Shown here one piece after another: positions 7,526-62,660 of a stretch of 64,000 nucleotides of DNA. The DNA is taken from assembly GCF_014297285.1 (NCBI RefSeq), contig NZ_JACOQI010000011.1, positions 1-64,000 on the forward strand, in the 5' to 3' direction. Each line of letters begins with the position of its first letter. The first letter of the stretch is position 1. The position numbers and the translations under genes are program-made. The notes beneath the pieces were generated by a model. It was given only the letters and a program-made list of their open reading frames with translations. It did no database searches and was not told the origin of the DNA. Source of the DNA: Dysosmobacter segnis (GTDB taxonomy: Bacteria; Bacillota; Clostridia; Oscillospirales; Oscillospiraceae).

Positions 7526-7563
7526 CGTTATTTGACCTTTCTTTTTAGATTTGCTCATAAGAA

Positions 7564-7595: not shown

Positions 7596-7620
7596 GTGAG
7601 CATATTGAGTTGCGGATAGG

Positions 7621-31288: not shown

Positions 31289-31343
31289 GTTAGTAACCTT
31301 CCTTTTTTATAGTTTGGATGGGTTTTCGTAAGCAAAAATGATC

Positions 31344-33272: not shown

Positions 33273-33289
33273 GCTTTTGTTACCTCCGA

Positions 33290-34093: not shown

Positions 34094-34171
34094 TGGAAAC
34101 ATCTCCTGTTTGATGTCAAAAAGTGGTATGGAAACGCGGTGGGGAGGACCGGGGTCCTCCCATCGCGCGAT

Positions 34172-46434: not shown

Positions 46435-47961
46435 TTACCGGCGGAGGGAGGTGGAGAGGCGGTCAATGCGCCAGACCAGCAGAATCAGTCCAAGGGCGAT
46501 GGCCCCGGCCTCGCTCCATTTGTAGTGGTTCATGGCGAAGATCAAAGGCGCGCCGATGCCGCCCGCGCCCACCAGTCCCAGAACCGACGCTTCCCGGATG
46601 TTCACGTCGAAGCGGTACAGCACCGCCGAGGCCAACGCCGGGAGCAGCTGGGGGAGCACGGCGTACCGGATGCGGAGCAGGAGGGGGACGCCCATGGCCT
46701 CTAAGGCGTGATAAGCCCGAAAGTCCAGCGCTTCAATGGCCTCCGTGAACCGTTTGCTCAAAAGACCAACGCTGCAAACGCCCAGAGTGAGCACGCCGGT
46801 AAAGGGGCCGGGACCGGCCACCCGAATAAAGATCAGACCGTAGATCAGGAAAGGAACAGAGCGGATCGCCATGATGACCACCCGGAACAGCAGTGCCGGG
46901 AGCTTTGGCATCAGGCAGGGGGTAGAGAGGAAAGACAGGGGCACTGCGATAACTGTTCCGGCGCAGGTGCCCACCAGAGCGATGCACACGGTCTCCAGCA
47001 GCAGGTACCCCAAGCCACTGGTATCCGTCTCAAAGAAGAAAGCCCAGTCGGGGTGGAACAGGCCGGAAATCATGGCCTGCACCGCCCGGGGGCTGATATG
47101 GGAGAAGTCCGGGGGCTGGAGAGACAGCGTACAGACCAAAGCCAGCAGAACGGCAGCGCCGGTGAGGAGCCGCTTCCCAAGGGGAGACAGGCTCCGTTCC
47201 TCCCGGATGATCTGGGACAGCAGGCCGCTGATCCCCTCGATGACGCAGACGGTGAGGAACAGGAAAAACAGGATCATGCCCACCTTGCCGTATTCCAGCC
47301 ATGAAATTTTTTCGTTCAGCAGCAGACCGATGCCTCCGGCCCCTACATAGCCCAGAATGGAACTGTGGCGCACGTTGGTCTCCAACAGGTACAGGACATT
47401 GGAGAAATAGGATGGGGCGATCCCCGGCACAACGGCCCGCCAGTAGACTTTGGCAGGCACCGCGCCCATGGCGCACAGAGCGTGGTAGGGGGCCAGTTCC
47501 GCCGATTCGATGTCCTCATAGGTCAGCCGGGTCAAAATGGCAAAGGTGTAGACCGTAATGGCCACGGTACCGGAGAAGGTGCCCAAGCCAAACAAGAACG
47601 TAGCCAGCAGCGCTAAAATCAGCGTAGGGAAGGAGCGGAGCACCTGCACCAGCAGCCGCAGCGTCCACCGGAGCGGCTTGGGGGCATGGAGATTTTCTGC
47701 GCACAGGGGGGCCAGCAGCAGCGCCAGAAACGATCCCAGCGCCGTGCCGGTGACGGACATCTGCACCGTAGCCAGCAGCGGGGACAGGATTCGGGGGGCA
47801 TACCCCCAATCCGGCGGGAGCATGGCGGAGATCAGGTCCGTCAGATGGCTCCGCCGCGCCCAGAACAGGGCGAGGGAGCAGTTGGTGAACCGCGCCGCAG
47901 CCAGCAGCAGAAGGAAAAGTGCCAGCGTCCGCAGCCAGCGCTTTCCGGAGGAACGGGTCAT
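46435..47961 (-). CDS. phnE: Fused phosphonate-type ABC permease (two PhnE domains)
   Basis: 508-aa permease with two homologous halves, each of about five to six helices. Each half has an EAA-like loop: LAPYHALCAMGAVPAKVYWR with GYVGAGGIGLLL in the first, and FRAYHALEAMGVPLLLRIRY with GLVGAGGIGAPL in the second, as in PhnE. The usual gene is one half this size, so the fusion supplies both channel subunits. Last gene of phnD-phnC-phnE; overlaps phnC by four bases. The substrate may be phosphonate, phosphite or another phosphorus compound. Confidence 0.88.
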   Translation of the reverse strand: MTRSSGKRWLRTLALFLLLLAAARFTNCSLALFWARRSHLTDLISAMLPPDWGYAPRILSPLLATVQMSVTGTALGSFLALLLAPLCAENLHAPKPLRWTLRLLVQVLRSFPTLILALLATFLFGLGTFSGTVAITVYTFAILTRLTYEDIESAELAPYHALCAMGAVPAKVYWRAVVPGIAPSYFSNVLYLLETNVRHSSILGYVGAGGIGLLLNEKISWLEYGKVGMILFFLFLTVCVIEGISGLLSQIIREERSLSPLGKRLLTGAAVLLALVCTLSLQPPDFSHISPRAVQAMISGLFHPDWAFFFETDTSGLGYLLLETVCIALVGTCAGTVIAVPLSFLSTPCLMPKLPALLFRVVIMAIRSVPFLIYGLIFIRVAGPGPFTGVLTLGVCSVGLLSKRFTEAIEALDFRAYHALEAMGVPLLLRIRYAVLPQLLPALASAVLYRFDVNIREASVLGLVGAGGIGAPLIFAMNHYKWSEAGAIALGLILLVWRIDRLSTSLRR

Positions 47962-48710
47962 GGCTGATCCTCCTGACGGTGGTAGACGGCGGCGAGGATC
48001 TCCTTCGCCGGGGTGTCCGCCGGGGCGTCCAGCACCACGGTTCCTTGGTTCAGGCCGATGAGACGGCTGGAAAATTCTTGTGACAGCTCCAGATTGTGGC
48101 TGTTCATGAGAACGGTCAGCTTTTGATCCTGCTGAATGTCCCGGAGCAATTCTAAAATCTGCCGTCCGGTGACGGGGTCCAAGGACGCTACCGGCTCGTC
48201 CGCCAGCAGCAGCGCGGGATGCCGCATCAGCGCCCGGGCGATGGCTACCCGCTGCTTTTGACCGCCGGAGAGGTTCTTCACCGGCTCGTGGACCTTGTCG
48301 GCAAGGCCCACCCGCTCCAGCAGGGCGTCCGCCTCGGCGACGCGCTCCTTTCCGAAAAAGCCGCAGACCGCCGGGAGGAACGCCATGTCCGGCAGACAGG
48401 CGTTCAACACGTTCTGGCGGCAGGTGGCATTTTCCACCAGTGCGAAATCCTGATAGATGGTGCCGATGGTGGTCTGAATGGCCCGGCGGGTCCTGCGGTC
48501 GGCAGACTCAAAGTGAACGCCGTTTACCAGAATGGCACCGCCGTCACAGCGGAGAGAACCGTTGAGGATGCGGAACAGGGTGGTTTTGCCCGCACCGGAG
48601 GGACCGATCACAGATACAAAATCCCCCTGACTGACGGAAAAGCTGGCGTCGGTCAGGGCGAGGGTGCGGTTTTGAAATTCTTTACGGACATGTTGGACTT
48701 CCAGCAGCAT
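47958..48710 (-). CDS. phnC: Phosphonate-type ABC transporter ATPase
   Basis: 250-aa ATPase. Walker A is GPSGAGKTT, signature LSGGQKQRVAIARAL, Walker B LLLADEPVASLDP, and switch His in MNSHNLELS. The PhnC-like features FQNRTLALTDASFSV and YQDFALVENATCRQNVL are present. It powers the PhnE permease. Coupled by overlap to phnE and 64 bases after phnD. Confidence 0.9.
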   Translation of the reverse strand: MLLEVQHVRKEFQNRTLALTDASFSVSQGDFVSVIGPSGAGKTTLFRILNGSLRCDGGAILVNGVHFESADRRTRRAIQTTIGTIYQDFALVENATCRQNVLNACLPDMAFLPAVCGFFGKERVAEADALLERVGLADKVHEPVKNLSGGQKQRVAIARALMRHPALLLADEPVASLDPVTGRQILELLRDIQQDQKLTVLMNSHNLELSQEFSSRLIGLNQGTVVLDAPADTPAKEILAAVYHRQEDQP

Positions 48711-48774
48711 AAATAGCCTTTCAGCCCCGCGGCTCCTGAGAAGCCGCGGGGCAAGTGTTTTTTAAAGGGGGGAC

Positions 48775-49839
48775 TTAGCCTTCCAGAGACTTCAGCAGCT
48801 CCTGCGCGGCCCGCTCGCCGTCATAATCGGAATCCTGACCCCAGGTGTAGCCCACCTGACTGAACACACTGATGATCTCCCGGCCCTCGTCGGTGTCGGC
48901 GATCTCGATGAAGCTTTCGCCCAGCGCCTTGCGGAAATCCTCATCCGCCATGGTATCGGAGTTCTTGCTGTAAGCGATCATATCGTTGTAGATGCCCTCG
49001 GTGACGCCGATAACGCCGGTCTGCTCCACCATGGGAGCGGTGCCGCCCAGCTCGCTCTCCCACTTGGGGGCGTTCTTGATGCGGATGTGGCCGAAGGAAA
49101 CCATCACGTCCACCTGACCGGCGGCCAGACGGGCCACGGAAGTGGTGTGAGAGTCAGACTGGACCACGTGCTCCAGATCGCTGATGCCCTTGCCGTAGTG
49201 ATCCTGGAGCCACAGGCAGGGATAGATGTAGCCGGAGGCGGAGGTGGGGCTGAGGACGGACCAGGTGGCGCTGTTGAGATCATCCCAGGTCAGTTCTTCA
49301 CCGGCATTGACCTTGGCCTGCAGTTCCTGACCCTTTTCGCTGGGACCGGCCAGAATGATGCAGCGGTAATAGGTGCTCATATCCTTGGTGTTTTCCTCGA
49401 TGGTGCCGTCATTCCAGTCAGCAGGGTTCTCGGAATCCTTGTTGATGGCATAGCGCAGAGCGGTGAGCAGCACATCGCAATCGTCGGAGAAGAGGACGTA
49501 GTTGCCGCCGGAGATGAAGCCGATGTCGGCGCTGCCGGCGCTGAGGGCCTCGCCCACGGCGGTGTAGCTGGTGCCCACGGTCATGTCGATGTCCTTCACG
49601 TCATAGCCCTTTTCCAGAAGCTTTGCCTGAAGCAGCTGCTCCAGAGGCTCCGTGGCGGTGGTGATCTGGTCCGCGTCGGCGTAGGGGGAGAAAGCGATCT
49701 TCAGAGAGGGGATCTCCTTCACACCGGTCTCACCGGCGCTTTCCGTGTCATTCTCCGCCGGGATCTGCTTGCCGGCGCAGCCGGTGGCGAGCCCCAGGCA
49801 CAGGGCCAGGGTCAGAATACTTGCAAGAAACTTTTTCAT
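48775..49839 (-). CDS. phnD: Phosphonate-type substrate-binding lipoprotein
   Basis: 354-aa lipoprotein with lipobox GLATGC near residue 20, and the PhnD/phosphite-binding fold: LKIAFSPYADADQITTATEP, then YDVKDIDMTVGTSYTAVGEA, FISGGNYVLF, and WSVLSPTSASGYIYPCLWLQ (the S-x-SG-type phosphate-binding stretch). It captures the substrate for PhnCE. The ATG at 49839 has GGAGG eight bases upstream; the longer frame to 49920 overlaps the leader terminator. Confidence 0.9.
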   Translation of the reverse strand: MKKFLASILTLALCLGLATGCAGKQIPAENDTESAGETGVKEIPSLKIAFSPYADADQITTATEPLEQLLQAKLLEKGYDVKDIDMTVGTSYTAVGEALSAGSADIGFISGGNYVLFSDDCDVLLTALRYAINKDSENPADWNDGTIEENTKDMSTYYRCIILAGPSEKGQELQAKVNAGEELTWDDLNSATWSVLSPTSASGYIYPCLWLQDHYGKGISDLEHVVQSDSHTTSVARLAAGQVDVMVSFGHIRIKNAPKWESELGGTAPMVEQTGVIGVTEGIYNDMIAYSKNSDTMADEDFRKALGESFIEIADTDEGREIISVFSQVGYTWGQDSDYDGERAAQELLKSLEG

Positions 49840-50117
49840 GGGATTTACCTCCAGATTTGATTTTCTGCTCAAAGCGCAAAAAAATATGTGCCTTGCAGCA
49901 CATACCGAATTTGACTTCAAGCAGATGCTGACAGCTCCCCCGGCGTCACCGGGGGAAACAGGGGCGGTCGATCCTTACTGGGATCCTCTCAACCCGGAAC
50001 ACGGGTTCCCTCGCAATCTGGTTTCGTCATCAATCTGAGCGCGGCGCCAAGGCGCTCCCCTTTTCACCGCATTCCGTAACCGTGGATTACCTTACCACAC
50101 TCTTCCGCAAAATACAA
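49840..50117 (-). promoter_or_regulatory. Structured leader with terminator upstream of phnDCE
   Basis: On the minus strand TTGTAT (50117-50112) and TAAGGT (50094-50089), 17 bases apart, start a leader of about 240 nt. It holds, in order, a GCGC-rich stem (about 50058-50036), AACCCG/CGGGTT (50009-49992 region), GATCC/GGATC (49985-49969 region), CCCCCGG/CCGGGGG (49956-49938 region), and finally TATGTGC/GCACATA followed by TTTTTTT, a terminator just before the phnD ribosome site. This is riboswitch-like architecture. I cannot match it to a known riboswitch class. Confidence 0.6.
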
Positions 50118-50295: not shown

Positions 50296-51018
50296 TTACT
50301 TGCCCTGACGCATTTCCTCGTCGATATCAATGAGATCCTGGAAATCCGGGCCCCAGAGACGGAAGTTTCCAGACTCGATCATTGCCTTATATTGGAAGGA
50401 GTCCCGGACCCGCTCCGGCAGGATGACGCCCGCACGGGCCTCATCACCGTCCTGATGGGTGTCAGATCCGGCCAGACGGAAATAGTTGGGATGGCGGCGG
50501 CACAGCTCCACGCCCCGGTCGCTGTGATTTTCGTGGCGGGGGTTGCCGTTGATGATCTCCGTGCCGTCCACAGCGTCCTCAAACACGGTGGTGTTGCCGT
50601 CCCGGTAGGGGTGGGCGTGGATGATGAGGACCTCATTGTGGAATTTCTCGTAGAATTCCCGGGCACTGGTGCAGCACATATAGGGGTTGGAGCGAAGCCA
50701 GTCCTCGTCGATGCCGTACACCAGATAGTCATTGTCATTCTGGGGGAAGCGCAGCTCGGCGCCCAAAATCACATCGAAGCCCAGCTCGTCACCCCGCTTT
50801 TTGGAGGCCTTGTAGCCGGAGAGATAGTGGTCCATGGCCTTCTGCCAGTCATGCTCCGTGTCGATGCGGGAGAGGTACTCCGGATGCAGATGGTCTGTGA
50901 CCACCAGACCGGAAAAGCCGTGCTTCACATAGCGCTCCACAACGTCGGCGGCAGGCAGATGGCCGCATTTGCTGGTTTCCGCAGTATGGGTATGAGGATC
51001 GTAAAGATAACCTTGCAT
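50296..51018 (-). CDS. PHP-domain phosphoesterase
   Basis: 240-aa soluble metal-dependent hydrolase. PHP motifs are seen in order: DPHTHTAETSKCG (HxH), VVTDHLHPEY, GAELRFPQ, IIHAHPYRDG and AGSDTHQDGD, giving a three-metal site. PHP enzymes include histidinol-phosphate phosphatase and nucleoside or other organophosphate phosphatases. It is read from the lacI gene's transcript (56-base gap), which ties it to the HAD/mutase/transporter cluster. Confidence 0.88.
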   Translation of the reverse strand: MQGYLYDPHTHTAETSKCGHLPAADVVERYVKHGFSGLVVTDHLHPEYLSRIDTEHDWQKAMDHYLSGYKASKKRGDELGFDVILGAELRFPQNDNDYLVYGIDEDWLRSNPYMCCTSAREFYEKFHNEVLIIHAHPYRDGNTTVFEDAVDGTEIINGNPRHENHSDRGVELCRRHPNYFRLAGSDTHQDGDEARAGVILPERVRDSFQYKAMIESGNFRLWGPDFQDLIDIDEEMRQGK

Positions 51019-51073: not shown

Positions 51074-52090
51074 TCACTTGGAGGGATCCAGCTTCCGGCA
51101 GGTGCCCCGCTGGATCAGCGTCGGCAGCAGGATCTGGTGGACATAGCCCTGAGTGCCGTTTTCAATTTTGTCCCGGAGCATATCCACCGCCTGCACCGCC
51201 ATGTCCCGCTTGGGCTGGTCAACGGTGGTCAGGTCGATGCGGGAGAGGGCCGTGGCGCTGATGTTATCGAAGCCGATGAGGCTCAGATGCCCCGGAATAT
51301 CAATGCCCATTTCATCTGCCGCCGTCAGAATACCCAAGGCATTGGAGTCCGTGGCGGCAAAGACTGCGGTGCAGTCCAGAGGCTTCCGGAACAGCTCCTT
51401 GGCCAGCTGATATCCGCCCTGAATGGAAGAGCGGGAATATTCGCTGTTGAAAAAATGAGGCGTGAGGTCAAATTCATGACAGGCCTTCATATATCCGTCC
51501 GCTCGGAGCTGATGAGTCGTGGAACCGGGACGCTGGCCGAAATAGAGAATGTCCTGGTGGCCCAGCTCATAGAGGTATTGGGTACCCAGATAGGTGCCCC
51601 GGCTGTTGTCAACGGCCACATAGCTCTGGGGCTGGCTCCGCAGGTTTTCACTGAGGAACACCGTGGGGACCTGGTCCAGATAAGACTTGAGGTTATCGTA
51701 GGATTTAGAGCTCTGAGGGACGATGAGGATCCCGTCCACCTGCCGGCCCAGCAGCAGCTTGAACACGGTCTTTTCCTGCTTCAGGTCCGGACCGGAATCA
51801 CAGAGCATGATATTATAACCGTGGGCACGGGCGCTGACTTCCGCGTGGTAGGCAAGCTCCGACATGAACTGGTTGTCCACAGAGGGGACCACAAGTCCGA
51901 TGAGGTTGGTGCGCTTGGTCACCATGGACCTGGCCACAAAGTTGGTGGTGTAGCCCATCTCATCGCACAGCTTCAGAACCCGTTCCCGGGTCTCGCTGCC
52001 GATCTGGGAGCTGCCGGAAAGGGCACGGGATACGGTAGCATAGGAGACGCCTGCTGCTTTGGCGACATCCTTTAATGTTACATTTTTCAT
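51074..52090 (-). CDS. LacI-family transcriptional regulator
   Basis: 338-aa repressor. The N-terminal helix-turn-helix and hinge read VTLKDVAKAAGVSYATVSRA and GYTTNFVARSMVTKRT; the periplasmic-binding-protein-like effector domain follows (LIGLVVPSVDNQFMSELAYH, GILIVPQSS, GFDNISATALSRIDLTTV). The likely operator is GCAAACGTTTGC, found at the promoters of the divergent HAD operon and of the ABC transporter operon, with a near copy (52123-52134) in its own leader. The ATG at 52090 follows AAGGGAG; the longer frame has no ribosome site. Confidence 0.92.
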   Translation of the reverse strand: MKNVTLKDVAKAAGVSYATVSRALSGSSQIGSETRERVLKLCDEMGYTTNFVARSMVTKRTNLIGLVVPSVDNQFMSELAYHAEVSARAHGYNIMLCDSGPDLKQEKTVFKLLLGRQVDGILIVPQSSKSYDNLKSYLDQVPTVFLSENLRSQPQSYVAVDNSRGTYLGTQYLYELGHQDILYFGQRPGSTTHQLRADGYMKACHEFDLTPHFFNSEYSRSSIQGGYQLAKELFRKPLDCTAVFAATDSNALGILTAADEMGIDIPGHLSLIGFDNISATALSRIDLTTVDQPKRDMAVQAVDMLRDKIENGTQGYVHQILLPTLIQRGTCRKLDPSK

Positions 52091-52122: not shown

Positions 52123-52134
52123 GCAAACGTTTCC
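52123..52134. promoter_or_regulatory. Near-palindromic LacI operator in the lacI leader
   Basis: GCAAACGTTTCC matches the 12-base palindrome of the other two sites in all but one position. It lies 33 bases before the lacI start codon on the minus strand, suited to autoregulation. Confidence 0.65.
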
Positions 52135-52288: not shown

Positions 52289-52347
52289 TTGACAAAAAGG
52301 GGCGAACTCCTATAAAATAAAAACAGAAATCGCAAACGTTTGCGATT
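52289..52347 (+). promoter_or_regulatory. Promoter and LacI operator of the HAD/mutase operon
   Basis: TTGACA (52289-52294), a 16-base spacer and TATAAA (52311-52316) are followed, right after the expected start site, by a perfect 20-bp palindrome AATCGCAAAC/GTTTGCGATT (52328-52347) centred on CG, the form of LacI-family operators. Repressor bound here would block elongation. Confidence 0.85.
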
Positions 52348-52428: not shown

Positions 52429-53163
52429 ATGACCGCCAATATCCAAACCATTTTCTTCGATGTAGGAAACACCCTGCGCATTGTCCTGCCGGATCAGGAG
52501 TTTATTGACCGGGCGGAAGCCGGTCTCATGGAACTGATCGGCACCACGGAGAGCCACGACGCCCTGTTTGCCAAGCTGGAGGAGCGCTGGAAGGCATACC
52601 GCAAGCAGTCCAAGACCACCCTGCTGGATGCTTCCGAGGGAGAACTGTGGACCCAGTACATGCTGCCGGAATATGATCCGAATATGATTTTTGCCAACGC
52701 CCCCAAGCTGACCCGCCTGTGGCGCGACCATGACGGCCGCCGGGTGGCCCGGCCGGACGCCGTAGCCACCATCAAGGAGCTGCACCGCCGGGGCTATACC
52801 CTTGGCATCATCGCCAACACCGTGACGGAGACGGAGATCCCCGATTGGATGGCCGCTGACGGCGTGGCCCAGTGCTTCAAAACCACGATCCTCTCCTCCA
52901 AGGTGCGCCTGCGCAAGCCGGACCCGGACATCTATCACCTGGCCTGCCGCTGCATCGGCACGCCGGAAGCCAACTGCGCCTATGTGGGCGATAACCCGGT
53001 GCGGGACGTGGAGGGCACTCAGGCTGCCGGCTTCGGTATGATGATCCGGATCGATGAGCCGGATACGCTGAACAAGGAAAAGGCCACCGGCAAGGAGTTT
53101 ACCCCGGATCATGTCATCACCAGCCTTTCTGAATTGCTGGACATCTTCCCTGAGCGGGCTTAA
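52429..53163 (+). CDS. HAD-like hydrolase 1 of the LacI-controlled operon
   Basis: 244-aa HAD-superfamily protein. Motif I is IFFDVGNTLR, with the nucleophile Asp but Gly in place of the usual second Asp (DxG instead of DxD). A helical C1 cap follows (residues about 20-100), motif II-like IIANTVTE, motif III Lys in RLRKPDPDIY and motif IV YVGDNPVRDVEG. Loss of the acid/base Asp is seen in HAD enzymes with other chemistry, such as dehalogenases and phosphonatase. The ATG at 52429 follows AAAGGAGG. First of three tandem paralogues. Confidence 0.85.
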   Translation: MTANIQTIFFDVGNTLRIVLPDQEFIDRAEAGLMELIGTTESHDALFAKLEERWKAYRKQSKTTLLDASEGELWTQYMLPEYDPNMIFANAPKLTRLWRDHDGRRVARPDAVATIKELHRRGYTLGIIANTVTETEIPDWMAADGVAQCFKTTILSSKVRLRKPDPDIYHLACRCIGTPEANCAYVGDNPVRDVEGTQAAGFGMMIRIDEPDTLNKEKATGKEFTPDHVITSLSELLDIFPERA

Positions 53164-53173
53164 AGGAGGACCT

Positions 53174-53896
53174 ATGGAAAAACAGTATAAAGCCGTCTTT
53201 TTCGACTTGGGCGGCACTCTGCGCATTGCTTTCCTGGAGGAGGCCTATATGCGCCACGCCCGTCGGAAAATGGCGGAGATCGCAGGCACGGATATGCCTT
53301 ATGAGGAATTCTATCAGATGATCGAGGAGCGCTACGAGCCGTACCGCAAGTGGGCTTTGGGCGAGTTCAAGGAATCCGGAGATGAAGAACTGTGGTGCAA
53401 ATGGCTGCTGCCGGACTATGACCCGGCCCGGATCCGTCAGGTGTGCCATGAGCTGAGCTTCCAGTACCGGCAGTGCAAGGGGCGCCGCGAGGTGGTAGAC
53501 GGCGGCGTGGAGGTCATCAAGGGCCTGCATGAGCGCGGCTACAAGCTGGGGATCATCTCCAACCTCATCGGTGAGAACGAGGTGCCCGACTGGCTGGAGG
53601 AGGACGGTCTGGATTCCTATTTTGACACAGTGATCCTCTCCTCCGTGTGCCACATGCGCAAGCCCTGCTCTGAGATCTACGATCTGGCCTGCCAGCAGAT
53701 CGGCGTGAAGCCGGAGGAGTGCGTGTCCGTTGCGGACAACATCAAGCGCGACATTGCCGGGGCCAAGAAGGCCGGTATCGGCTGCAATATTATTTTCCGG
53801 TCTCCGGAGAAGAAGCATCCCGTGGAATTTACGGAGGAAAACCGCCCGGACTATGTCATTGAAGATTTCCGGGAGATCCTGAACATTCTGCCCTGA
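53174..53896 (+). CDS. HAD-like hydrolase 2
   Basis: 240-aa paralogue of the flanking HAD genes. Motif I VFFDLGGTLRIAF again has DxG, the cap holds ELWCKWLLPDYDPARI, motif II IISNLIGENEVPDWLEEDGL, motif III HMRKPCSEIYDLA and motif IV SVADNIKRDIAGAK (Ala for the usual Gly). Shared cap wording with copies 1 and 3 shows recent common origin. The ATG at 53174 has AAAGGAGG, ten bases after the previous stop. Confidence 0.85.
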   Translation: MEKQYKAVFFDLGGTLRIAFLEEAYMRHARRKMAEIAGTDMPYEEFYQMIEERYEPYRKWALGEFKESGDEELWCKWLLPDYDPARIRQVCHELSFQYRQCKGRREVVDGGVEVIKGLHERGYKLGIISNLIGENEVPDWLEEDGLDSYFDTVILSSVCHMRKPCSEIYDLACQQIGVKPEECVSVADNIKRDIAGAKKAGIGCNIIFRSPEKKHPVEFTEENRPDYVIEDFREILNILP

Positions 53897-53939: not shown

Positions 53940-54716
53940 ATGAATACGGACATCCGTTATATTTTTCTGGATCTGGGCGGTACCTTCCGGGTCATTGACA
54001 AGGACCCGGCTTATCTGGCTACCGCCCGGGCGAAAATCGCAGAGCTGTGCGGCGTGAAGACGGAAGATCCTACCCGGTGGTTCGAGGATGTGATCGACAA
54101 GCGGTACGATGTATACCGGGAATGGGCCCTGAAATATATGTGCGAGGCCCCGGAAGAGGTGCTGTGGCGGCGCTGGCTGGCCTATGACTGTGATCCGGAG
54201 CTGATCCGGCGCAATGCCTCGGAGCTTTGCTACCAGTACCGGCAGACCAAGGGCCGCCGCACGGTGGTAGAGGGCGGCGCAGATACAGTGAAGGAGCTGT
54301 GCCGCCGGGGCTACACTCTGGGCATCATCTCGGATCTGGTGGGCAGACGGGAAGTGGACGAGTGGCTGGATCAGGATGGCCTGCGCCCCTATTTCCAGAC
54401 AGTCCAGCAGTCCTCGGTCACCTATATCCGCAAGCCCGGCCCCGCGATCTACTATTACGCCATGGAGGAAGTGGGAGCCGAACCGGAAAACTGCTGCTAT
54501 GTGGGCGACAATCTGAACCGGGACATCATCGGCGCCAAGGCCGTCGATTTCGGTATGACCGTCACGGTGCAGTACCAGAAGGATAAGCCCCTGAAGCTGA
54601 CGGCGGAAAACCGCCCGGATGCCAAGGTCTATCGGTTCCCGGACCTGCTGGATATTTTCCCCAAGCGGGGGCAGGTGGCCGTGGAAAAGCTGATCCCGCC
54701 GGAGGATGGACAATAA
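53940..54716 (+). CDS. HAD-like hydrolase 3
   Basis: 258-aa paralogue. Motif I YIFLDLGGTFRVIDKD (DxG), a cap with EEVLWRRWLAYDCDPELI and CYQYRQTKGRRTVVEGG, motif II GIISDLVGRREVDEWLDQDG, motif III YIRKPGPAIYYYA and motif IV YVGDNLNRDIIGAK. Like copies 1 and 2 it keeps the nucleophile Asp, Lys and motif IV Asp but not the second Asp of motif I. The ATG at 53940 follows AAAAGGAGG. Followed by the permuted mutase. Confidence 0.85.
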   Translation: MNTDIRYIFLDLGGTFRVIDKDPAYLATARAKIAELCGVKTEDPTRWFEDVIDKRYDVYREWALKYMCEAPEEVLWRRWLAYDCDPELIRRNASELCYQYRQTKGRRTVVEGGADTVKELCRRGYTLGIISDLVGRREVDEWLDQDGLRPYFQTVQQSSVTYIRKPGPAIYYYAMEEVGAEPENCCYVGDNLNRDIIGAKAVDFGMTVTVQYQKDKPLKLTAENRPDAKVYRFPDLLDIFPKRGQVAVEKLIPPEDGQ

Positions 54717-54802: not shown

Positions 54803-56371
54803 ATGTCTGAATCCAAGCGCGGCGGCGCACAACTGGCGCGGGCCGTGGAAAAAGCGTATCAGGCGGGGCAGGATGACTACCATCTGGAACCCATGGTCCT
54901 GGTGGAGAACGGCAAGCCTGTAGGCAAGATCGGAGATGGCGATGCCGCCGTGTTCTGTTGCCGCCGCGGTGAGCGGGAGATCGAGCTGACGGAGCTGTTC
55001 ACCGATCCGGACTTCAACAAGGTGCAGCGGAACCAGCTGAAGGATCTGGATTTCGTCATCATGACCATGTATCATGACAAATTCAAGGATCTGCCCATCG
55101 CCTTTGCGCCGTCTCATGTGGTGAAGCCTCTGGCTCAGGTCCTCAGCGAGGCGGGGAAGAATCAGTTCCACTGCGCGGAGAGCGAGAAGTATGCCCATGT
55201 GACCTTTTTCTTCAACGGCGGCGAGAACGCGCCCTTCCCCGGCGAGGATGACGTGTGCGTGCCGTCCCCCAAGGGCATTGACTTTGACCAGCAGCCGGAG
55301 CTGAGCCTGCCTGCCGTGGCTGATCAGGTCATGGGTGCTTTGGGTAAATACGATTTCGTGGTGACCAACTTCGCCAACGGCGACGTGATCGGCCACACCC
55401 TGAATACCGCCGCCAAGCTGGAAGCCTGCAAGCATGTCAGCCACTATCTGGATGTGGTGGTCCATGACGCGCTGGCCAAGGGCTATGTGGTGGCCGTCAC
55501 CGCGGATCACGGCAACATTGAAAAGCTGTACACCGCCGCAGGCAAGCCCGACGGCGCCCACACCACCAATCTGGTGCCTTTCATTCTGATGGACCCCGCC
55601 CACAGCGGCCCCATTGCCCTGCGGGACGGCTGTCTGGGTGACGTGGCGCCTACGGTGCTGAACGTCATGGGCATCCCCCAGCCTGCGGAGATGACCGGCA
55701 AATCTCTGGCGGAGGGACACGATTTCGGCAAGGACCGGAAGATGCTGCTCATCATCTGCGATGGTTGGGGTCTCGGCTCCGGCGATGACGGCGACGCGAT
55801 CCATCTGGCGGATACCCCCTACTGGGATTCCCTGCTGGCGGAGCAGTCCTGGAGCAAACTCCACGCCTCCGGCGAGCATGTTGGCCTGGGAAGCGGAAAG
55901 GCCGGCAACTCCGAGGCAGGCCACTCCAATCTGGGCGCAGGCCGCTGCGTCATGCAGGATGACGTCCGTCTGGACGCCGCTGTGAAGGACGGCAGCTTCA
56001 AGAAGAATCCCATCTTCTTACAGGCCATCGAACACGCCAAAAAGAACGGCACGGCGCTGCATCTGCTGGCATATCTCACTTATAAATCCTCTCACGGCTG
56101 CATCGACTACCCGTTGGCCATCTGCGAAATGGCCCGGGATGCCGGACTGGATCAGGTATTCTTCCACATCATCTTTGACGGCCGCTCCACGGAACCCGGC
56201 TCCGCACCCAAGCTGCTGGCAGAGCTGGACGAAAAGCTGGATGCCATCGGCGTGGGCCGCATTGTGGATGGTGTGGGCCGCGGCGTGGCGCTAGACCGGG
56301 ACAAGAACTATGACAAGGTGAAACGGGCCTATGACGCCATGGTGGACGGCGCAGGTACCCGGTATGAGTAA
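54803..56371 (+). CDS. Circularly permuted cofactor-independent phosphoglycerate-mutase-like enzyme
   Basis: 522-aa metalloenzyme of the alkaline phosphatase/iPGM superfamily with its halves swapped. Residues 1-310 match the second part of normal iPGM in order: LARAVEKAYQ, GDGDAAVFCCRRGER, AESEKYAHVTFFFNGG (Lys129), NFANGDVIGH (Asp194, His198), TADHGN (Asp235, His236), AHTTN (His253) and EMTGKSL, the usual C-terminus. Residues 314-522 then match the usual N-terminal part: LLIICDGWG (Asp320), AGNSEAGH (nucleophile Ser370), His431, DGRST (459-463), GRGVALDRD and KRAYDAM. The phosphatase domain is thus continuous and the transferase domain split. Metal ligands are kept; DGRDT is DGRST and the RPDR-like loop is RRGER, so the substrate may differ. 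The ATG follows AAGGAGG. Confidence 0.85.
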   Translation: MSESKRGGAQLARAVEKAYQAGQDDYHLEPMVLVENGKPVGKIGDGDAAVFCCRRGEREIELTELFTDPDFNKVQRNQLKDLDFVIMTMYHDKFKDLPIAFAPSHVVKPLAQVLSEAGKNQFHCAESEKYAHVTFFFNGGENAPFPGEDDVCVPSPKGIDFDQQPELSLPAVADQVMGALGKYDFVVTNFANGDVIGHTLNTAAKLEACKHVSHYLDVVVHDALAKGYVVAVTADHGNIEKLYTAAGKPDGAHTTNLVPFILMDPAHSGPIALRDGCLGDVAPTVLNVMGIPQPAEMTGKSLAEGHDFGKDRKMLLIICDGWGLGSGDDGDAIHLADTPYWDSLLAEQSWSKLHASGEHVGLGSGKAGNSEAGHSNLGAGRCVMQDDVRLDAAVKDGSFKKNPIFLQAIEHAKKNGTALHLLAYLTYKSSHGCIDYPLAICEMARDAGLDQVFFHIIFDGRSTEPGSAPKLLAELDEKLDAIGVGRIVDGVGRGVALDRDKNYDKVKRAYDAMVDGAGTRYE

Positions 56372-56620: not shown

Positions 56621-57367
56621 TCAGCGGGCGTCCTTCAGAATCGTGTAGACCTCATAAATGTCCTTCACGCTGTAAGTGGGCTTCACGTCCGCGGGAACAT
56701 TGGTGTCCTTCAGCTTGGTGAGGTAGGAGTCGATGTGGAAGGTGGCGCCGAAGCCCATGCGGATGGGGCCGATGACGTCCCGGGAGAGGGTATCGCCCAC
56801 ATAGGCACAGCTGGCGGGGTCAGACTGGACCTGATGGAGGGAGACCAGAAAAATGTTGGGGTCTGGCTTGCGATATCCGGTGACGGAAGAAAGCGTCACA
56901 TCCTGGAAGTAGTCCCGGATGCCGTAGTCTTTCAGAACGTCAAACACCTGATAGAGACTGGCTGTGTTGCTGATGACGCCCAGCTTCATACCCAGCCCCT
57001 TCAGCCCTTCCAGCATTTCCTTCACGTGGGGGCGGAGAGTACGGTGATAGTGGGTGATCTCCCACATGTGGGCCAGCTCCTCGGCGTAGGGACGCACAGA
57101 ATCTTCATTCAGGCCGAAATCCGTCAAAACGAAGCTGCCCCAGATCTCCTCCGGCTTCAGCTCCCGCTGCCGGGGGTCCCGGTAAGCGCCGTAACGTTCC
57201 CAGCCGGCATTGATGCTCTGAGCCGTAGTTTCAAAGTCCATGTTCAGATCGATGCCGTGAGCGCGTAGAATATCCAGCACGCCCTGAATGGAAGAATGGC
57301 GGCTTTCATCGTCAACCCAGATGTCCTCCAGAGTGCCACCCATATCGAACAATACAGTATCTATCAT
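56621..57367 (-). CDS. HAD-like hydrolase 4, end of transporter operon
   Basis: 248-aa HAD protein. Motif I VLFDMGGTLEDIW (DxG again), cap with ELKPEEIWGSFVLTDFGLNE, motif II VISNTASLYQVFD, motif III GYRKPDPNIFLVS, motif IV YVGDTLSRDVIGPIRMG. It is more distant from the tandem copies but shares the missing second Asp. Encoded on the opposite strand, as the last gene after the ABC importer and a membrane protein, so transport and processing are linked. The ATG at 57367 follows AAAGG by ten bases. Confidence 0.85.
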   Translation of the reverse strand: MIDTVLFDMGGTLEDIWVDDESRHSSIQGVLDILRAHGIDLNMDFETTAQSINAGWERYGAYRDPRQRELKPEEIWGSFVLTDFGLNEDSVRPYAEELAHMWEITHYHRTLRPHVKEMLEGLKGLGMKLGVISNTASLYQVFDVLKDYGIRDYFQDVTLSSVTGYRKPDPNIFLVSLHQVQSDPASCAYVGDTLSRDVIGPIRMGFGATFHIDSYLTKLKDTNVPADVKPTYSVKDIYEVYTILKDAR

Positions 57368-57416: not shown

Positions 57417-57923
57417 TCAGAGAGAGTTTCTGCGGCGAAGCAGCCACCAGGAGCTTCCAAAACCCATCAGCAGCGGCACAGGGACCATCATACCGAAGAG
57501 CTGGAGAAACAGGACCGACGCGCCGTGATCGCCCCGCAGCAGGAGCAGCATGGTCACCAGACTGGCGAGGGCCAGCAGCAAGAGCCAGCCGTATGCAGCC
57601 AGAACAGTCTGAGGGTGGCAGATCAGGTGGGTCAGCGCGCAGATTGCTGTCCCGATCAGGGCGGGGAGCAGCGCGCTGACCAGATTTTCTACCGCCCGGG
57701 GCGCAAGGGCAAGCCATGCGTGAATGGGATCGGTCAGCAGAAAGAAGGCCGCGCCGTAAACTGCCAGAAAGAGGATGGACAGGCAGAAGGAATTCAGCAG
57801 CAGCGTGCTTTTTACATGGCCGTTTTCCGTCAGCCGGAAGGCATCCCAAAAGGATTCCACCCGTCTGGCCTGTTCTTTTTCCCGTTCTGCCCGGCGCAGT
57901 TCTTTTTCAAAATCCTGGTTCAT
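57417..57923 (-). CDS. Small four-helix membrane protein
   Basis: 168-aa protein: a charged, helical N-terminus (DFEKELRRAEREKEQARRV) then four membrane helices (about residues 42-65, 80-100, 108-128, 135-160). No family recognised. It sits between the binding protein and HAD 4 in the transporter operon, so a role with the importer is plausible. GGAGAT-like ribosome site before the ATG. Confidence 0.65.
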   Translation of the reverse strand: MNQDFEKELRRAEREKEQARRVESFWDAFRLTENGHVKSTLLLNSFCLSILFLAVYGAAFFLLTDPIHAWLALAPRAVENLVSALLPALIGTAICALTHLICHPQTVLAAYGWLLLLALASLVTMLLLLRGDHGASVLFLQLFGMMVPVPLLMGFGSSWWLLRRRNSL

Positions 57924-58001: not shown

Positions 58002-59306
58002 TTACTTCATCTTGGGGTTCTTGGACAGCCAGTAAGTCCACATATCCTGCACGTCGGGATAGATGTAATAGATGGCGCTGAGGTCGTTGGCGCGGGCGCC
58101 CAGTTCGCTGAGCTTTGCGGGGTTCTTCTTGTCCTCCACGTCGTCGCGGACGGGCCAGTTGCCTTCCTTCTTGAAGGGCTTCATACCTTCGCTCTGGCCG
58201 TCGGCACCGCCGGTGATGTAGCGGACGAACAGACGGGCGCCGGCGGGGCTGTTGGTGCCCTTGGCGATGAACAGGGACTCCAGATTCAGCAGGGCGGTGT
58301 AAGGCTCCAGATTCAGGCACCAGGCGATGTTGTAGCCGGATTCGTCACGGTTGCCGATCTTGCCGGCGGAGGCCAGGCACAGGGCGGGTTCGTCGGCGGT
58401 GGAGTTGTGGACGGCCAGCACCAGCTCATCACCGTCACCGATGAAGGTCATCTCGGCCTGAGAGAAGCGCCACAGGTACTCCACGCCGGCGTTCTTCTCG
58501 GGAACTTCAAAGTTGAAATCGGAGGCATCGTAGGTGTATTCCAGATCCTTGCCGTAGGTGTCCTTATAGGACTGCGCCATCTCGTCGGCGTTGTTGATGA
58601 AGCTGGCAAACAGGGACAGGTACGCGGACTCCTGACCGATCTCCTTGGTGAACAGGTGGTACTTCTGGGTGCCGTCGTCCTTCTTCTCAATGATCTCCCA
58701 CCAGCTGTGGATGGGCTGTCCATCGGGGAAGGCGGCGGTGTTGTAGAACCACATGGACTGGGAGGCGTACAGAGGATAGCCATATTTCAGGTTTTCCTCG
58801 TCGATGTGAGAGCAGATGTCCTTGGGGAAATAAGGCTCCAGAATGTCCTGATTGTACCACTCGTGGAACACGTTGCCGTTGACATCCTTGGTCTGGAGCA
58901 CGTCGGCGGTGATGTTGCCGGTGTCGTGCTCGATTTTGGCCTTGGAGAGCACCTCGTCGTTGTCCAGATCGAATACCACCAGATCAAGGCCGGGGTAGGT
59001 TTCCTCAAAGCTCTCCTCCACCTTCATCATCTTGGAGGAGGTGGCGTAGACGTTGATGGTGGTGTCCTCCGTCAGGGCTTCTTCATAAAGCTCGTCGTCG
59101 GTCTTTTCGCTCCAGTCGTCATAGTAGGGGCCGTAATAATTTTCACCGGTGTTAAGGTCATAGCCAAGGTGCAGGTCGCTGGCGGCAGCTTCGCTGCCGG
59201 ACTGGGAATCGTCGGAGGGCTGGTCGGTGCTCTTGCCGCCGCAGGCGGCCAGACTCAGCACCATGGAAAGCGCGAGAAGCAGTGCAGAAAACTTCTTCAT
59301 ATTCAT
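58002..59306 (-). CDS. ABC importer substrate-binding lipoprotein
   Basis: 434-aa lipoprotein with lipobox LSLAAC near residue 21, an acidic Ser-rich linker, and a type II periplasmic-binding fold of the Fbp/Afu/PotD cluster: INVYATSSKMMKVEESFEE, LDLVVFDLDNDEVLSKA, VLQTKDVNGNVFHEW, YGYPLYASQSMWFYN. Proteins of this group bind iron, polyamines, phosphorylated sugars or 2-aminoethylphosphonate; the ligand is unknown here. The ATG at 59306 has AAAGGAG five bases upstream. Confidence 0.85.
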   Translation of the reverse strand: MNMKKFSALLLALSMVLSLAACGGKSTDQPSDDSQSGSEAAASDLHLGYDLNTGENYYGPYYDDWSEKTDDELYEEALTEDTTINVYATSSKMMKVEESFEETYPGLDLVVFDLDNDEVLSKAKIEHDTGNITADVLQTKDVNGNVFHEWYNQDILEPYFPKDICSHIDEENLKYGYPLYASQSMWFYNTAAFPDGQPIHSWWEIIEKKDDGTQKYHLFTKEIGQESAYLSLFASFINNADEMAQSYKDTYGKDLEYTYDASDFNFEVPEKNAGVEYLWRFSQAEMTFIGDGDELVLAVHNSTADEPALCLASAGKIGNRDESGYNIAWCLNLEPYTALLNLESLFIAKGTNSPAGARLFVRYITGGADGQSEGMKPFKKEGNWPVRDDVEDKKNPAKLSELGARANDLSAIYYIYPDVQDMWTYWLSKNPKMK

Positions 59307-59373: not shown

Positions 59374-60495
59374 TTATACCGCACGTTTGATCAACCGAGT
59401 GGTTTCCTTGTTGTAGATGTTGATCTTATCCTGATCGATAATGGCCCAGACCTTCTGATCCAGATCGTAGCGGATCTGGCCGATGTCCTTGGCCAGGAAC
59501 TCGTCGGTGCCGGCCTTCAGGGTGGTGATGGTTTCAGAGCCGGCGGGCTGGTTGGCGTAAATGGTAACGGGAATGGCGCCCTCCACCGGCTGGGTGGAGA
59601 TGGCAATCTGCTCGGGACGGATGGCCAGCACGCAGTCGAACTCGCCGCTCTTGGGGAATTCCTCACTGGTAAGGTGCTCGGCGGGGAAGGTGTGGCCGCC
59701 CAGATCGCTCTTAACCACCAGCTGGCCGTTGATAACCTCGGCCTTGCCGTCCAGCAGGTTGATGCGGGGATTGCCGATGAAGTCCGCCGCTTCCAGATCA
59801 ATGGGGTTGTTGTACAGTTCCGTGGGGGTGGCCACCTGATTCAGCTCGCCGGCCTTGAACAGGGCGATCTTGGTGGACATGGTCAATGCCTCGGTCTGGT
59901 CGTGGGTCACATAGATGATGGTGGTGCCCAGTTCCTTATGGAGGCGCTGCAGCTCCGCACGCATATCAATGCGCAGCTTGGCGTCCAGGTTGGACAGCGG
60001 CTCGTCAAGCAGCAGCAGCTTGGGGCTGGAGGCTACGGCACGGGCGATGGCCACCCGCTGCTGCTGGCCGCCGGACAGCTCGGTGGGATAGCGGTCCTTG
60101 TACATGTCAATACGCATCATCCGCAGGGAGTCCATGACCCGGCGGTCGATCTCCGCCTTGCTCATCTTCTGGATCTTCAGGCCGAAGGCGATGTTGTCGT
60201 AGACCGTCATGTGGGGCCACAGGGCGTAGGACTGGAACACCAGATTCAGCCCCCGCTTGCTGGGCTCGGCGTAATAGGCGTCGTCTGCGTTGATCATCTC
60301 CACGCCGTCGATGGTCATGGTGCCGTTCTGGGGCTTTTCCAGTCCGGAAACCACACGCAGCGTGGTGGTCTTGCCGCAGCCGGAGGGCCCCAGCAGGGTC
60401 ATGAAGTCGCCGTCCTCAATGGTGAGGTTGATGTCCCGCAGGACGTGGTTGCTGCCGTAAAATTTATCAATGTGCTTCAATTCAATGCGGCTCAT
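59374..60495 (-). CDS. ABC importer ATPase (PotA/FbpC/UgpC-like)
   Basis: 373-aa ATPase. Walker A GPSGCGKTT, Q-loop FQSYALWPHMTVYDN, signature LSGGQQQRVAIARAV, Walker B LLLLDEPLSNLDAKLR, switch His YVTHDQTEAL; the C-terminal 130 residues form a TOBE/OB regulatory domain. It drives the fused permease encoded upstream. Overall closest to importers for iron, spermidine, glycerol-3-phosphate or phosphonates, judged by the layout. Confidence 0.9.
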   Translation of the reverse strand: MSRIELKHIDKFYGSNHVLRDINLTIEDGDFMTLLGPSGCGKTTTLRVVSGLEKPQNGTMTIDGVEMINADDAYYAEPSKRGLNLVFQSYALWPHMTVYDNIAFGLKIQKMSKAEIDRRVMDSLRMMRIDMYKDRYPTELSGGQQQRVAIARAVASSPKLLLLDEPLSNLDAKLRIDMRAELQRLHKELGTTIIYVTHDQTEALTMSTKIALFKAGELNQVATPTELYNNPIDLEAADFIGNPRINLLDGKAEVINGQLVVKSDLGGHTFPAEHLTSEEFPKSGEFDCVLAIRPEQIAISTQPVEGAIPVTIYANQPAGSETITTLKAGTDEFLAKDIGQIRYDLDQKVWAIIDQDKINIYNKETTRLIKRAV

Positions 60496-60532: not shown

Positions 60533-62356
60533 TTACATACTCTTGTTGAGGTCTGCGCCGAAGCGGTTGGCCACGGTGTAGCACACCAGAATGAAGACCA
60601 GCACGCAGACGGATACCGCGTCGGACATCTGGTTGTAGCCCTCCTGCGAGTAGGTAAAGGCCAGATAGGACATGGTCTGGGTGGAGGGAGTCATCATGAT
60701 GATGACCAGATCCAACTCCTTGGCAATGGAGATGAAGGTCAGCATGAAGCCGGAGATGAAGCCGTTTTTCGCCAGCGGCACGATGATGGAACTCATCCGC
60801 TTCCAGAAGCTGGCGCCGGCGATATCTGCCGCCTCCTCCAGCTCCACGCTGATGGAGAGCATATTGGCGGTACCGGACTTGCTGGCGAAGGGGAAGTGCT
60901 TGACCACCGAGGTCAGCACGATCAGGGTAAAGGTGCCGTACAGGGAGGGCATCAGTCCGCCGAAATGCGGCCGGGAGAACATGGAGAAATACATGGTGGA
61001 GAAAGCAATGCCGCTCATCAGGTAGGGCACGAACACCATCTGCTCCGTCAGGTCGCCGTACCACTTGCCACGGCCCCGGGAACTGATATAGCCCAGGAAC
61101 TGGCCGCAGATGGCGGTGATGATGGAGCCGATGAGGGTCAGGCGGATGGTGTTCCAGAAGGCACTGAAGAACTTGGGATTCCGGAAGATGCCTTCGTAGT
61201 TGGTGTACTTGGCAATTTGGCCGGACTTGCCGATCCAGTTGTAGAGGGTCAGGTTATCCAGCCCGTAGCCGGCGCCGGTGGTGATCTGGAAGGTTTCCAT
61301 AATCAGCACGAAGAAGGGCACCACCATGGCCAGGAAGAGGAATACCATCAAAAATGCCATCAGAGGCTTCTTGGCCTTGCCCAGAGGCATCAGCGTGGCG
61401 CGGCCGCCCTTGCCGCTGACGGTGGCGTAGGACTTCCGGACGCCCACGATCCGCTGGTTGGAGAAGATGATGACGGCAGCCAGCAGCACCAGCACGATGG
61501 ACATGGCGTAGCCCACGGCCTGGGGACCCTGGTCGATGAAGTTGCGCATCTTGGTGGCCAGCGTATAGTAGCCGATGCGGTTGCCCAGGTTGGCGGGGAC
61601 GCCGTATGTACCGATGGATTTGCTGATGGTCATGACGGTGGCAGACAGCACGGAGGGCAGGATCAGGGGCAGGGTGATGTGCCGCAGGATCTGGGCCTTG
61701 CTGGCGCCCTGGATCTCACCCATCTCCTCCAGCTCGGAGTTGATGGAGCGGAGCGCGCCGGAGACCATGATGTAGGAGAATGCGTAATAGTGCATGGACA
61801 TGCACAGCACGATGGCAATGGGACCGTAGGCCAGCCAGTCGGGGATGGGGATGCCCATACCGGCCAGAAAGCCGTTGGCGCCGGAGGTGGAGTTGCGGAA
61901 CATGGCCAGCCAGGCCAGCGCCTTGGTCCACGAAGGGATCATATAGGGCACGGTCACCAGCAGTCCCAGAATTTTCTTGCCGGGGATGTCTGTGCGGATC
62001 ATCAGCCAGGCCAGCACGGAGCCAAGGGGGACCGATACCAGCACGGTGAAGAAGCCGCAGATAAAGGAGTTCTTCAGTGGCCCCCACAGCACGGCGCCGG
62101 ACATGGTGCTGGCAAGGATGTATTTCCAGTAGTACAGGGTAAAGTCGCCCACGTGACCCTGGACCCGGCGCAGCTCGCCTTGAGCCAGCGTAAAGGTGCT
62201 GGAGATCATGGTCAGCAGAGGGATGATGATGAGGCAGAACAGGATGATGAGACTGACCAGCACCACCATGTTAAAGGGGTTTTTCAGCACATTCAGGATC
62301 AGGTTCTTTAAACGCCGCTTGGTCAGGGGTTTTCTGGGTAATCCATTTTTCGACAC
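60533..62356 (-). CDS. Fused ABC importer permease (two FbpB/AfuB-like domains)
   Basis: 607-aa permease with about 12 helices in two homologous halves, as in FbpB, AfuB and PhnU/V-type fusions. Each half has the cytoplasmic EAA loop: EEMGEIQGASKAQILRHITL in the first and EEAADIAGASFWKRMSSIIV in the second. First gene of the operon. The start is GTG at 62356, five bases after AAAGAGGTG. The LacI-type operator and consensus promoter lie 106 to 161 bases upstream. Confidence 0.9.
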   Translation of the reverse strand: MSKNGLPRKPLTKRRLKNLILNVLKNPFNMVVLVSLIILFCLIIIPLLTMISSTFTLAQGELRRVQGHVGDFTLYYWKYILASTMSGAVLWGPLKNSFICGFFTVLVSVPLGSVLAWLMIRTDIPGKKILGLLVTVPYMIPSWTKALAWLAMFRNSTSGANGFLAGMGIPIPDWLAYGPIAIVLCMSMHYYAFSYIMVSGALRSINSELEEMGEIQGASKAQILRHITLPLILPSVLSATVMTISKSIGTYGVPANLGNRIGYYTLATKMRNFIDQGPQAVGYAMSIVLVLLAAVIIFSNQRIVGVRKSYATVSGKGGRATLMPLGKAKKPLMAFLMVFLFLAMVVPFFVLIMETFQITTGAGYGLDNLTLYNWIGKSGQIAKYTNYEGIFRNPKFFSAFWNTIRLTLIGSIITAICGQFLGYISSRGRGKWYGDLTEQMVFVPYLMSGIAFSTMYFSMFSRPHFGGLMPSLYGTFTLIVLTSVVKHFPFASKSGTANMLSISVELEEAADIAGASFWKRMSSIIVPLAKNGFISGFMLTFISIAKELDLVIIMMTPSTQTMSYLAFTYSQEGYNQMSDAVSVCVLVFILVCYTVANRFGADLNKSM

Positions 62357-62461: not shown

Positions 62462-62517
62462 GCAAACGTTTGCACTTCCTTGCTACCATTATAAAGAATT
62501 CTTAACGGAATTGTCAA
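62462..62517 (-). promoter_or_regulatory. Promoter and LacI operator of the transporter operon
   Basis: On the minus strand TTGACA (62517-62512), an 18-base spacer and a perfect TATAAT (62493-62488) are followed by GCAAACGTTTGC (62473-62462), a perfect 12-base palindrome identical to the core at 52332-52343. The site sits just downstream of the start point, the same geometry as at the HAD/mutase promoter. Confidence 0.88.
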
Positions 62518-62640: not shown

Positions 62641-62660
62641 CGAAAACGTATACGTTTTCG
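62641..62660. promoter_or_regulatory. Second, different 20-bp palindrome
   Basis: CGAAAACGTA/TACGTTTTCG is a perfect 20-bp inverted repeat, 124 bases upstream of the transporter -35. The half-site CGAAAACG differs from the GCAAACG half-site of the other operators. It may bind another LacI-type or global regulator. The rest of 62518-62705 shows no gene. Confidence 0.5.

Follow-up and report, generated by a model that had tools for sequence, protein, structure and literature searches.

The window analyzed, a stretch of DNA of 64,000 nucleotides, harbors on its plus strand a frame open over 522 codons (54803..56371), preceded by the ribosome-binding site aaggaggtactttttATG. The frame itself, the family profile, phmmer and the structure model concur that its 522-aa product resembles cofactor-independent phosphoglycerate mutase (iPGM) in a circularly permuted form. 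Upstream, on the same strand and likely in the same operon, reside the genes of three HAD-type hydrolases recognized by family scans: HAD1 (52429..53163, motif I DVGNT), HAD2 (53174..53896, DLGGT) and HAD3 (53940..54716, DLGGT). A LacI-family regulator gene (51074..52090, minus strand) is divergent from this operon, and the gene of a PHP-domain protein with a HisJ-like match below the cut-off lies beyond it (50296..51018, minus strand); both were assigned by family scans.

On the other side of the mutase-like gene, an ABC importer operon occupies the minus strand. It starts with a fused permease (60533..62356), whose best NCBIfam match in the family scan, PhnU2, is below the cut-off, followed by an ATPase (59374..60495; assigned by reading and by similarity to related loci), a solute-binding lipoprotein (58002..59306; family scans and an ortholog profile), a small, apparently membrane-spanning protein recognized by reading (57417..57923), whose slot recurs in related loci, and, as the last gene, a fourth HAD-type hydrolase found by family scans (HAD4, 56621..57367, motif I DMGGT). 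The binding protein fell into none of the Pfam and NCBIfam families; when eight of its orthologs were combined in a profile, a weak match to the Fe3+-type binding protein 6fjl (E 6e-5) emerged.

The two operons share a putative operator. According to the palindrome search, the perfect LacI-type palindrome GCAAACGTTTGC occurs at two sites in the 64 kb, one upstream of HAD1–HAD2–HAD3–mutase (52332..52343) and one upstream of the importer operon (62462..62473), and nowhere else. With one mismatch, it is found at 23017 and at 52123..52134 alone, the latter upstream of lacI, where it likely mediates autoregulation; chance alone would give 0.17 sites with at most one mismatch. In related loci, the core AAACGTTT is present in 43 of 55 intergenic stretches between lacI and the next gene. 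The first-pass annotation had placed the mutase-like gene in a LacI regulon with HAD proteins and an importer, and the position of GCAAACGTTTGC before both operons bears this out.

Several other features of the window deserve mention in their own right. A second perfect palindrome of 20 bp, CGAAAACGTATACGTTTTCG, is located upstream of the importer operon (62641–62660) and is perhaps a site of another LacI-family regulator. Beside the regulon lies a phosphonate-type ABC system (46435–49872) with a PhnE fusion above the cut-off, a PhnD-like binding protein below it and a PhnC-like ATPase recognized by reading. The minus strand at 30251–35074 carries genes of myo-inositol catabolism, of which iolD and iolE score above the cut-off and the iolG- and iolB-like genes below it. 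The region 2240–7603 encodes a predicted surface protein of 1787 residues with many CnaB-like repeats, as judged by reading, and with a C-terminal LPRTGY-like motif, presumably a sorting motif.

Block order and catalytic site of the mutase-like protein

The chain of the window protein begins with what is normally the second part of iPGM. Its residues 14–302 (54842..55708, plus strand) were aligned by phmmer with residues 219–508 of the Bacillus stearothermophilus iPGM (1ejj), i.e., the normal C-terminal part, whereas residues 313–521 (55739..56365, plus strand) match residues 5–213, the normal N-terminal part with the nucleophile Ser370 and DGRST, without a gap. Between them, phmmer leaves a new linker of residues 303–312 (55709..55738, plus strand) that connects the former C terminus with the former N terminus, and the model has a pLDDT of 92 there (block 301–310). 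The permutation point hence corresponds approximately to iPGM residue 213/219. The TIGR01307 profile scored 468.8 bits in total against a cut-off of 330.65, in two separate stretches. Comparisons of the window model with iPGM by VIA and Foldseek mainly covered one half, because these aligners follow the chain order, so the assignment of the other half comes from the phmmer alignment.

The frame with its iPGM blocks in the order second part, first part had been proposed in the first-pass annotation, and phmmer and TIGR01307 confirm it. The motifs were also as described there: EMTGKSL at residues 296–302, Ser370 as the nucleophile, DGRST at 459–463, RRGER at 54–58 and the KRAYDAM block close to the C-terminal end. 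The claim on the junction stands in part: EMTGKSL and DGWG (320–323) are indeed adjacent blocks, but DGWG starts 18 residues past the end of EMTGKSL, not within 14, with a linker of approximately ten residues. The protein possesses the PF01676 metalloenzyme domain, the binuclear metal site and the fold that characterize the alkaline phosphatase superfamily; the block order of GpmI (the Asp12/Ser62 block, the transferase domain, then the C-terminal metal block) is not the order found in it. Thus, the window protein is a naturally circularly permuted iPGM homolog.

Residues of the catalytic site, numbered after 1ejj according to the phmmer alignment, were scored in 232 permuted proteins. The metal ligands and the nucleophile (Asp12, Ser62, Asp403, His407, Asp444, His445 and His462) are present in all 232, so their retention, noted initially for the window protein, extends to the whole set. 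At each of the positions His123, Arg153, Arg185, Arg191, Arg261, Arg264 and Lys336, 230 or 231 of the 232 proteins retain the residue, the remainder being gaps or single exceptions. The role of Ser62 as the nucleophile is consistent with the title of a report on the S62A mutant, and the metal-site pattern of iPGM agrees with the accessible part of PMC5382265.

Against this conserved background, certain positions separate the two classes. The change of DGRDT to DGRST, pointed out earlier for the window protein, is general: position 154 is Ser in all 231 permuted proteins with a letter there and Asp in 20 of 20 normal genes. In iPGM, Asp154 presumably contacts a substrate hydroxyl; no passage on its role was found in the open-access literature. 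At position 260, 229 of 230 permuted proteins have Arg and one has Lys, but the 20 normal genes have Phe (18) or Tyr (2). When 42 permuted proteins were compared with the 20 normal ones, seven class-separating positions emerged, all of them within four residues of a catalytic-site residue. Four of these (430, 432, 462 and 497 in P0001) split without exception on either side; residue 54 is Arg in 42 of 42 permuted proteins as opposed to Phe (18) and Tyr (2), and residues 53 and 503 distinguish 40 of 42 permuted proteins from 20 of 20 normal ones. The permuted family thus departs from iPGM in two defining features, the block order and Asp154. As judged from its residues, the permuted enzyme would keep the phosphoserine-forming machinery of iPGM, with chemistry that is probably alike, while its substrate site seems to have lost one acid and gained one base.

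Spread and origin of the permuted family

A collection of species-representative genomes (84,980 species) was scanned with an alignment of 12 permuted proteins. The scan matched 251 stretches; 223 of them passed confirmation, and the 80 best were retained. All 80 of these best loci feature the swapped order together with FDGRST and CCRRGER. By record titles, they include three strains of Oscillibacter valericigenes (L004, L018 and L026), Lachnospiraceae, Christensenella and Chloroflexi bins, and one of them (L023) is located on the complete chromosome of [Clostridium] asparagiforme DSM 15981. In a survey of 398 genomes of the phylum of L018, the permuted mutase was matched in 12 at E <= 1e-90, one of them being the center genome; the other 11 matches, including a partial one, were each colinear in one stretch at 39–43% identity, and the seven loci read from the survey were all permuted. 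Few candidates were scored per genome, so the survey counts (12/398, 3/17, 2/301 and 4/200) mean "at least"; e.g., the permuted mutase of the genome G108 was missed.

A protein search with one of the 39–43% relatives as the query returned 120 relatives among the matches listed, 44–97% identical to the query. The minority of them with named sources came from Bacillota, Anaerolineae and Thermotogota. Altogether, 241 proteins were classified: 232 are permuted, six combine a normal part with a second Ser block and three escape classification by motifs. Homologs with the swapped order, as called for in the first-pass annotation, are therefore plentiful, and the source names suggest that the family spans many species of at least three phyla. 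Six matches were on viral contigs: L081–L083 are of normal order, L086 is partial with normal N-terminal blocks, and L084 and L085 could not be scored. No permuted iPGM was encountered in titles and abstract openings of the open-access literature among the matches listed, in line with the initial statement that no described case was known; in a paper carrying both terms, "circular permutation" refers to glutathione synthetase.

The six proteins with two Ser blocks (P0063, P0066, P0068, P0069, P0081 and P0085; 629–727 aa) possess the architecture N-half, C-half, N-half. Their first part is normal, with DGRD in all six and the loop FRPDR in five (YRPAR in P0068), and the remainder is permuted sequence, near-identical among five of the six. 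Such an architecture is what a duplication route to permutation would be expected to look like. As tandem intermediates, these proteins were nevertheless disfavored: the switch point falls in blocks conserved in both types and each protein forms a one-member cluster, so they were taken as likely assembly chimeras of normal and permuted genes. The resemblance of these six to chimeras lends some color to the idea that the window protein is itself a sequencing or assembly error fusing two gene fragments, but the probability of that is negligible, with the same order in 80 of 80 best loci, including the complete chromosome, and in 232 of 241 proteins, and with identical chain ends in a second clade.

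The phylogeny was inferred for 42 permuted and 20 normal proteins with their halves put in the same order. The split between the two types received a support of 1.0 for the full length, 0.999 for the N half and 0.993 for the C half, which argues for one origin of the permuted proteins with respect to these 20 normal iPGMs; the normal set comes entirely from genomes carrying a permuted gene, and a wider sample could change the picture. With the permuted proteins rooted on a normal gene, two clades were distinguished. Clade 1 (18 sampled proteins, support 0.946) comprises the window protein and relatives 53–100% identical to it, including P0172 and P0191, which bear Anaerolineae names. Clade 2 (24 sampled, support 0.999) is 36–42% identical to the window protein and includes the Thermotogota-named P0165 and P0170. 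A more divergent permuted protein is encoded in L173 of Chloroflexota (3205–4830, minus strand), with LGRRGE, by reading, at the site of DGRD in iPGM; its gene adjoins a histidine-phosphatase-like gene, also recognized by reading (dPGM-like).

A separate gpmI of normal order, a search for which had been suggested at the outset, was sought in 30 genomes of relatives carrying the permuted gene. It was found in 24 of them, in two cases broken into pieces; two further genomes contained a fragment of indeterminate order and four lacked a second iPGM. These last genomes may be incomplete or may use another mutase. All 20 second-copy genes fetched displayed the normal order and DGRD, and C. asparagiforme harbors two permuted copies along with a normal one. 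Since most of the genomes possess a normal-order iPGM, glycolysis is probably not the task of the permuted copy.

Gene neighborhoods of the two clades

In clade 1, genes up to 12 positions from the mutase were counted in 80 loci, many of which are cut by contig ends, and each neighbor family was named after one member. One of HAD1–3 is found near the mutase in 74 loci, lacI in 61, a PfkB-type kinase in 52, the window-type binding protein in 27, an MgtC-type gene in 27 and a membrane-pyrophosphatase-type gene in 25. The binding protein is missing from many loci, and contig ends explain many of these cases, not all. A transketolase split into two genes was observed near the permuted gene in 15 of the 80 loci (downstream of it in L001, L003, L007 and others), and an iron alcohol dehydrogenase in 12.

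The window contains four HAD-type proteins and many relatives have five, with DxGxT wherever motif I was recognized. HAD phosphatases usually carry a general acid/base Asp at position D+2 of this motif. Among 299 HAD genes, motif I was recognized in 231, and all 231 have Gly at D+2; the other 68, mostly HAD3, are outside the strict pattern, and a looser pattern detects DLG in 67 of 71 HAD3. The Gly may signify either an unusual chemistry or a non-hydrolytic partner set. The one kinase tested (L009:4653-5531, minus strand) is TM0415-like (141 bits). According to the available portion of PMC5931981, TM0415 is a PPi-dependent myo-inositol kinase; of the five PPi-donor residues given there, the L009 kinase, by reading, keeps four (K171, R229, R232 and M266), and F221 is replaced by Ile. 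Together with the pyrophosphatase-type genes, a PPi-based economy around the clade-1 permuted genes is possible.

Clade-2 neighborhoods were compared in 11 loci. In L126, L127, L128, L129 and L134, the order is GntR, a gene termed d4, binding protein, permease, ATPase and permuted mutase (in L127, from d4 onward); in L133 and L136, the ATPase, or the ATPase and the permease, precede the mutase and then the contig is cut. The d4 protein matched no Pfam or NCBIfam family in the scans, though a newer precomputed Pfam entry, PF27272, exists. The d4 of L126 aligns with solved cyclic-2,3-diphosphoglycerate (cDPG) synthetases at 435–438 bits. The residues reported for the 2,3-DPG/ADP-Mg site of the synthetase in the accessible text of PMC10690619 (E45, K145, R146, K149, T150, D208 and K406) are conserved in it, the alignment being read by eye.

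In the 398 genomes, the synthetase was detected in eight, the permuted mutase in 12 and both in six (Fisher p ~5e-9, with kinship ignored); in G303, the two reside on two contigs. In the seventh synthetase genome, G108, the operon is complete and includes a permuted mutase ORF of 562 aa, which makes a sixth linked locus, and in the eighth, G349, which gave no mutase match in the survey, the contig ends in the ATPase gene where the mutase would come. The synthetase is absent from five of the 11 clade-2 genomes (those of L130, L131, L132 and L135, and G255) and from all 19 clade-1 genomes searched. Neither an importer of the clade-2 type nor the synthetase is near the mutase in L130, L132 and L135, and L131 is cut just upstream. 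The other neighbors in this subgroup, as annotated in L130, are RapZ, a phosphoglucomutase-like protein and chromate transporters. Homologs of the synthetase are common in bacteria (7,995 matches); therefore, its link with the permuted mutase is not exclusive.

The best matches of the clade-2 importer are PhnS2, PhnU2 and PhnT2, all below the cut-offs. The best solved relative of its binding protein is 6wce, a pyridoxal-phosphate binder, followed by 4r72–4r75, which we take to be the sugar-phosphate binder AfuA. The accessible part of PMC4546632 describes AfuABC as a sugar-phosphate importer. The names of most of the binding protein's 37 solved relatives refer to iron or to other ligands, and, going by these similarities, an iron importer would be possible.

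Predicted function and relation to known systems

The loss of an acid and gain of a base at the substrate site, combined with the clade-2 importer and a synthetase using 2,3-bisphosphoglycerate, make a substrate with one more phosphate than 2- or 3-phosphoglycerate the simplest prediction. Hence, the permuted iPGM homolog is tentatively read, with somewhat less than even confidence, as a phosphoserine-forming phosphotransferase/phosphatase whose substrate is 2,3-bisphosphoglycerate or an imported bisphosphate much like it, and not as a glycolytic mutase. This is in keeping with the new substrate that the first-pass annotation considered likely. A broader proposal is more doubtful: the permuted proteins, databased as gpmI, would be an ancient branch of single origin handling 2,3-bisphosphoglycerate in an undescribed bacterial pathway of guts, rumens and digesters for the uptake and use of phosphoglycerate-type organophosphates, e.g., cyclic 2,3-diphosphoglycerate, which is known as a methanogen solute.

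In the proposed mechanism, the ABC importer would bring in the organophosphate, and the LacI-type regulator would sense it or one of its products. Ser370, activated by two metal ions, would take one phosphate as in iPGM, and room and charge for the second would come from the loss of the acidic side chain and the gain of Arg. The phosphate might then be passed to water or another hydroxyl, releasing 2- or 3-phosphoglycerate for glycolysis, and the HAD proteins with, in related loci, the PPi-type kinase would handle other phosphates. Counted against 2,3-bisphosphoglycerate as the substrate are the lack of the synthetase in the genomes searched of the clade of the window protein and the weak Fe3+-type match of the window binding protein. 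The neighbors in this clade, the HADs and, in relatives, the TM0415-like kinase, would be compatible with inositol or sugar phosphates as well, which is a serious alternative.

The rival that survives best, though an unlikely one, is a permuted yet ordinary phosphoglycerate mutase for the catabolism of imported phosphoglycerates, special in its expression and not in its chemistry. It would account for the retention of almost all iPGM catalytic residues, for the TIGR01307 score above the curated cut-off and for the linkage of clade-2 genes to a PhnS2/PhnU2/PhnT2-type importer, but not readily for the seven class-differing positions near the catalytic site, Asp154-to-Ser included, nor for the normal-order gene already present in 24 of the 30 genomes.

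Less likely again is an enzyme of a gut phosphate-scavenging regulon that acts as a mutase or phosphatase on phosphorylated sugars or cyclitols (e.g., phytate-derived inositol phosphates). The kinase near 52 of the 80 clade-1 genes, its tested member being close to TM0415, is consistent with such a role, as are the iol genes of the window and the existence of Afu-type sugar-phosphate importers (PMC4546632, as far as accessible). Yet all substrate-site Arg residues of iPGM are kept, the iol genes are ~20 kb off, no such kinase was noticed, by reading, beside the window regulon, and clade 2 has the cDPG synthetase instead.

Rather improbable is a 2,3-bisphosphoglycerate synthase moving phosphate between two phosphoglycerates, whose product would go to the cDPG synthetase in clade 2 and to a different acceptor in clade 1: the synthetase is encoded in the clade-2 operon and no 2-phosphoglycerate kinase was recognized among the annotated clade-2 neighbors, but the importer in the same operon suggests uptake. 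The probability of a phosphonate-processing enzyme of the alkaline phosphatase superfamily is very low. The similarity of the importer subunits to 2-aminoethylphosphonate ABC proteins (PhnU2 in the window; PhnS2, PhnU2 and PhnT2 in clade 2), the phosphonate ABC system beside the window regulon, with PhnE above the cut-off, and the Gly at D+2 in the HAD proteins with a recognized motif I point toward it; against it, the matches to PhnS2, PhnU2 and PhnT2 are all below the cut-offs, and the transferase half and the Arg set of iPGM, which phosphonoacetate hydrolase is not known to possess, are conserved in the permuted proteins.

The window protein scores above the naming cut-off of gpmI, and several of its relatives bear this name; consequently, metabolic models of gut Firmicutes may misplace the permuted proteins. 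Should the predicted substrate prove right, bacteria would possess a route for 2,3-bisphosphoglycerate or cyclic 2,3-diphosphoglycerate outside methanogens.

Among the known systems, the nearest named types of the neighboring importers are AfuABC and the 2-aminoethylphosphonate ABC importers, with NCBIfam matches below the curated cut-offs. The cDPG synthetase (8ork, 9sxb) is non-homologous to the permuted mutase; its gene is a neighbor of clade-2 members alone and is absent from the window. The accessible part of PMC10690619 indicates that it uses 2,3-bisphosphoglycerate, a compound from the same area of metabolism. Phosphopentomutase and other members of the alkaline phosphatase superfamily display lower similarity to the window protein. 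Their cap domain is different from that of iPGM. The closest system is GpmI (TIGR01307; 1ejj/1o98), which is homologous over the whole length and shares the metal ligands, the Ser nucleophile and almost all of the Arg, Lys and His residues of the substrate site. Unlike GpmI, the permuted proteins are opened at approximately residue 213/219, the changes of Asp154 to Ser and Phe260 to Arg are fixed in them, and their genes reside beside ABC importers or HAD genes, with a normal paralog in most genomes searched. Whereas iPGM is the standard example of a domain inserted within another domain, the conserved permuted family represents this insertion turned inside out, and on it the part played by chain connectivity in domain insertion, hinge closure and phosphate transfer can be tested directly.
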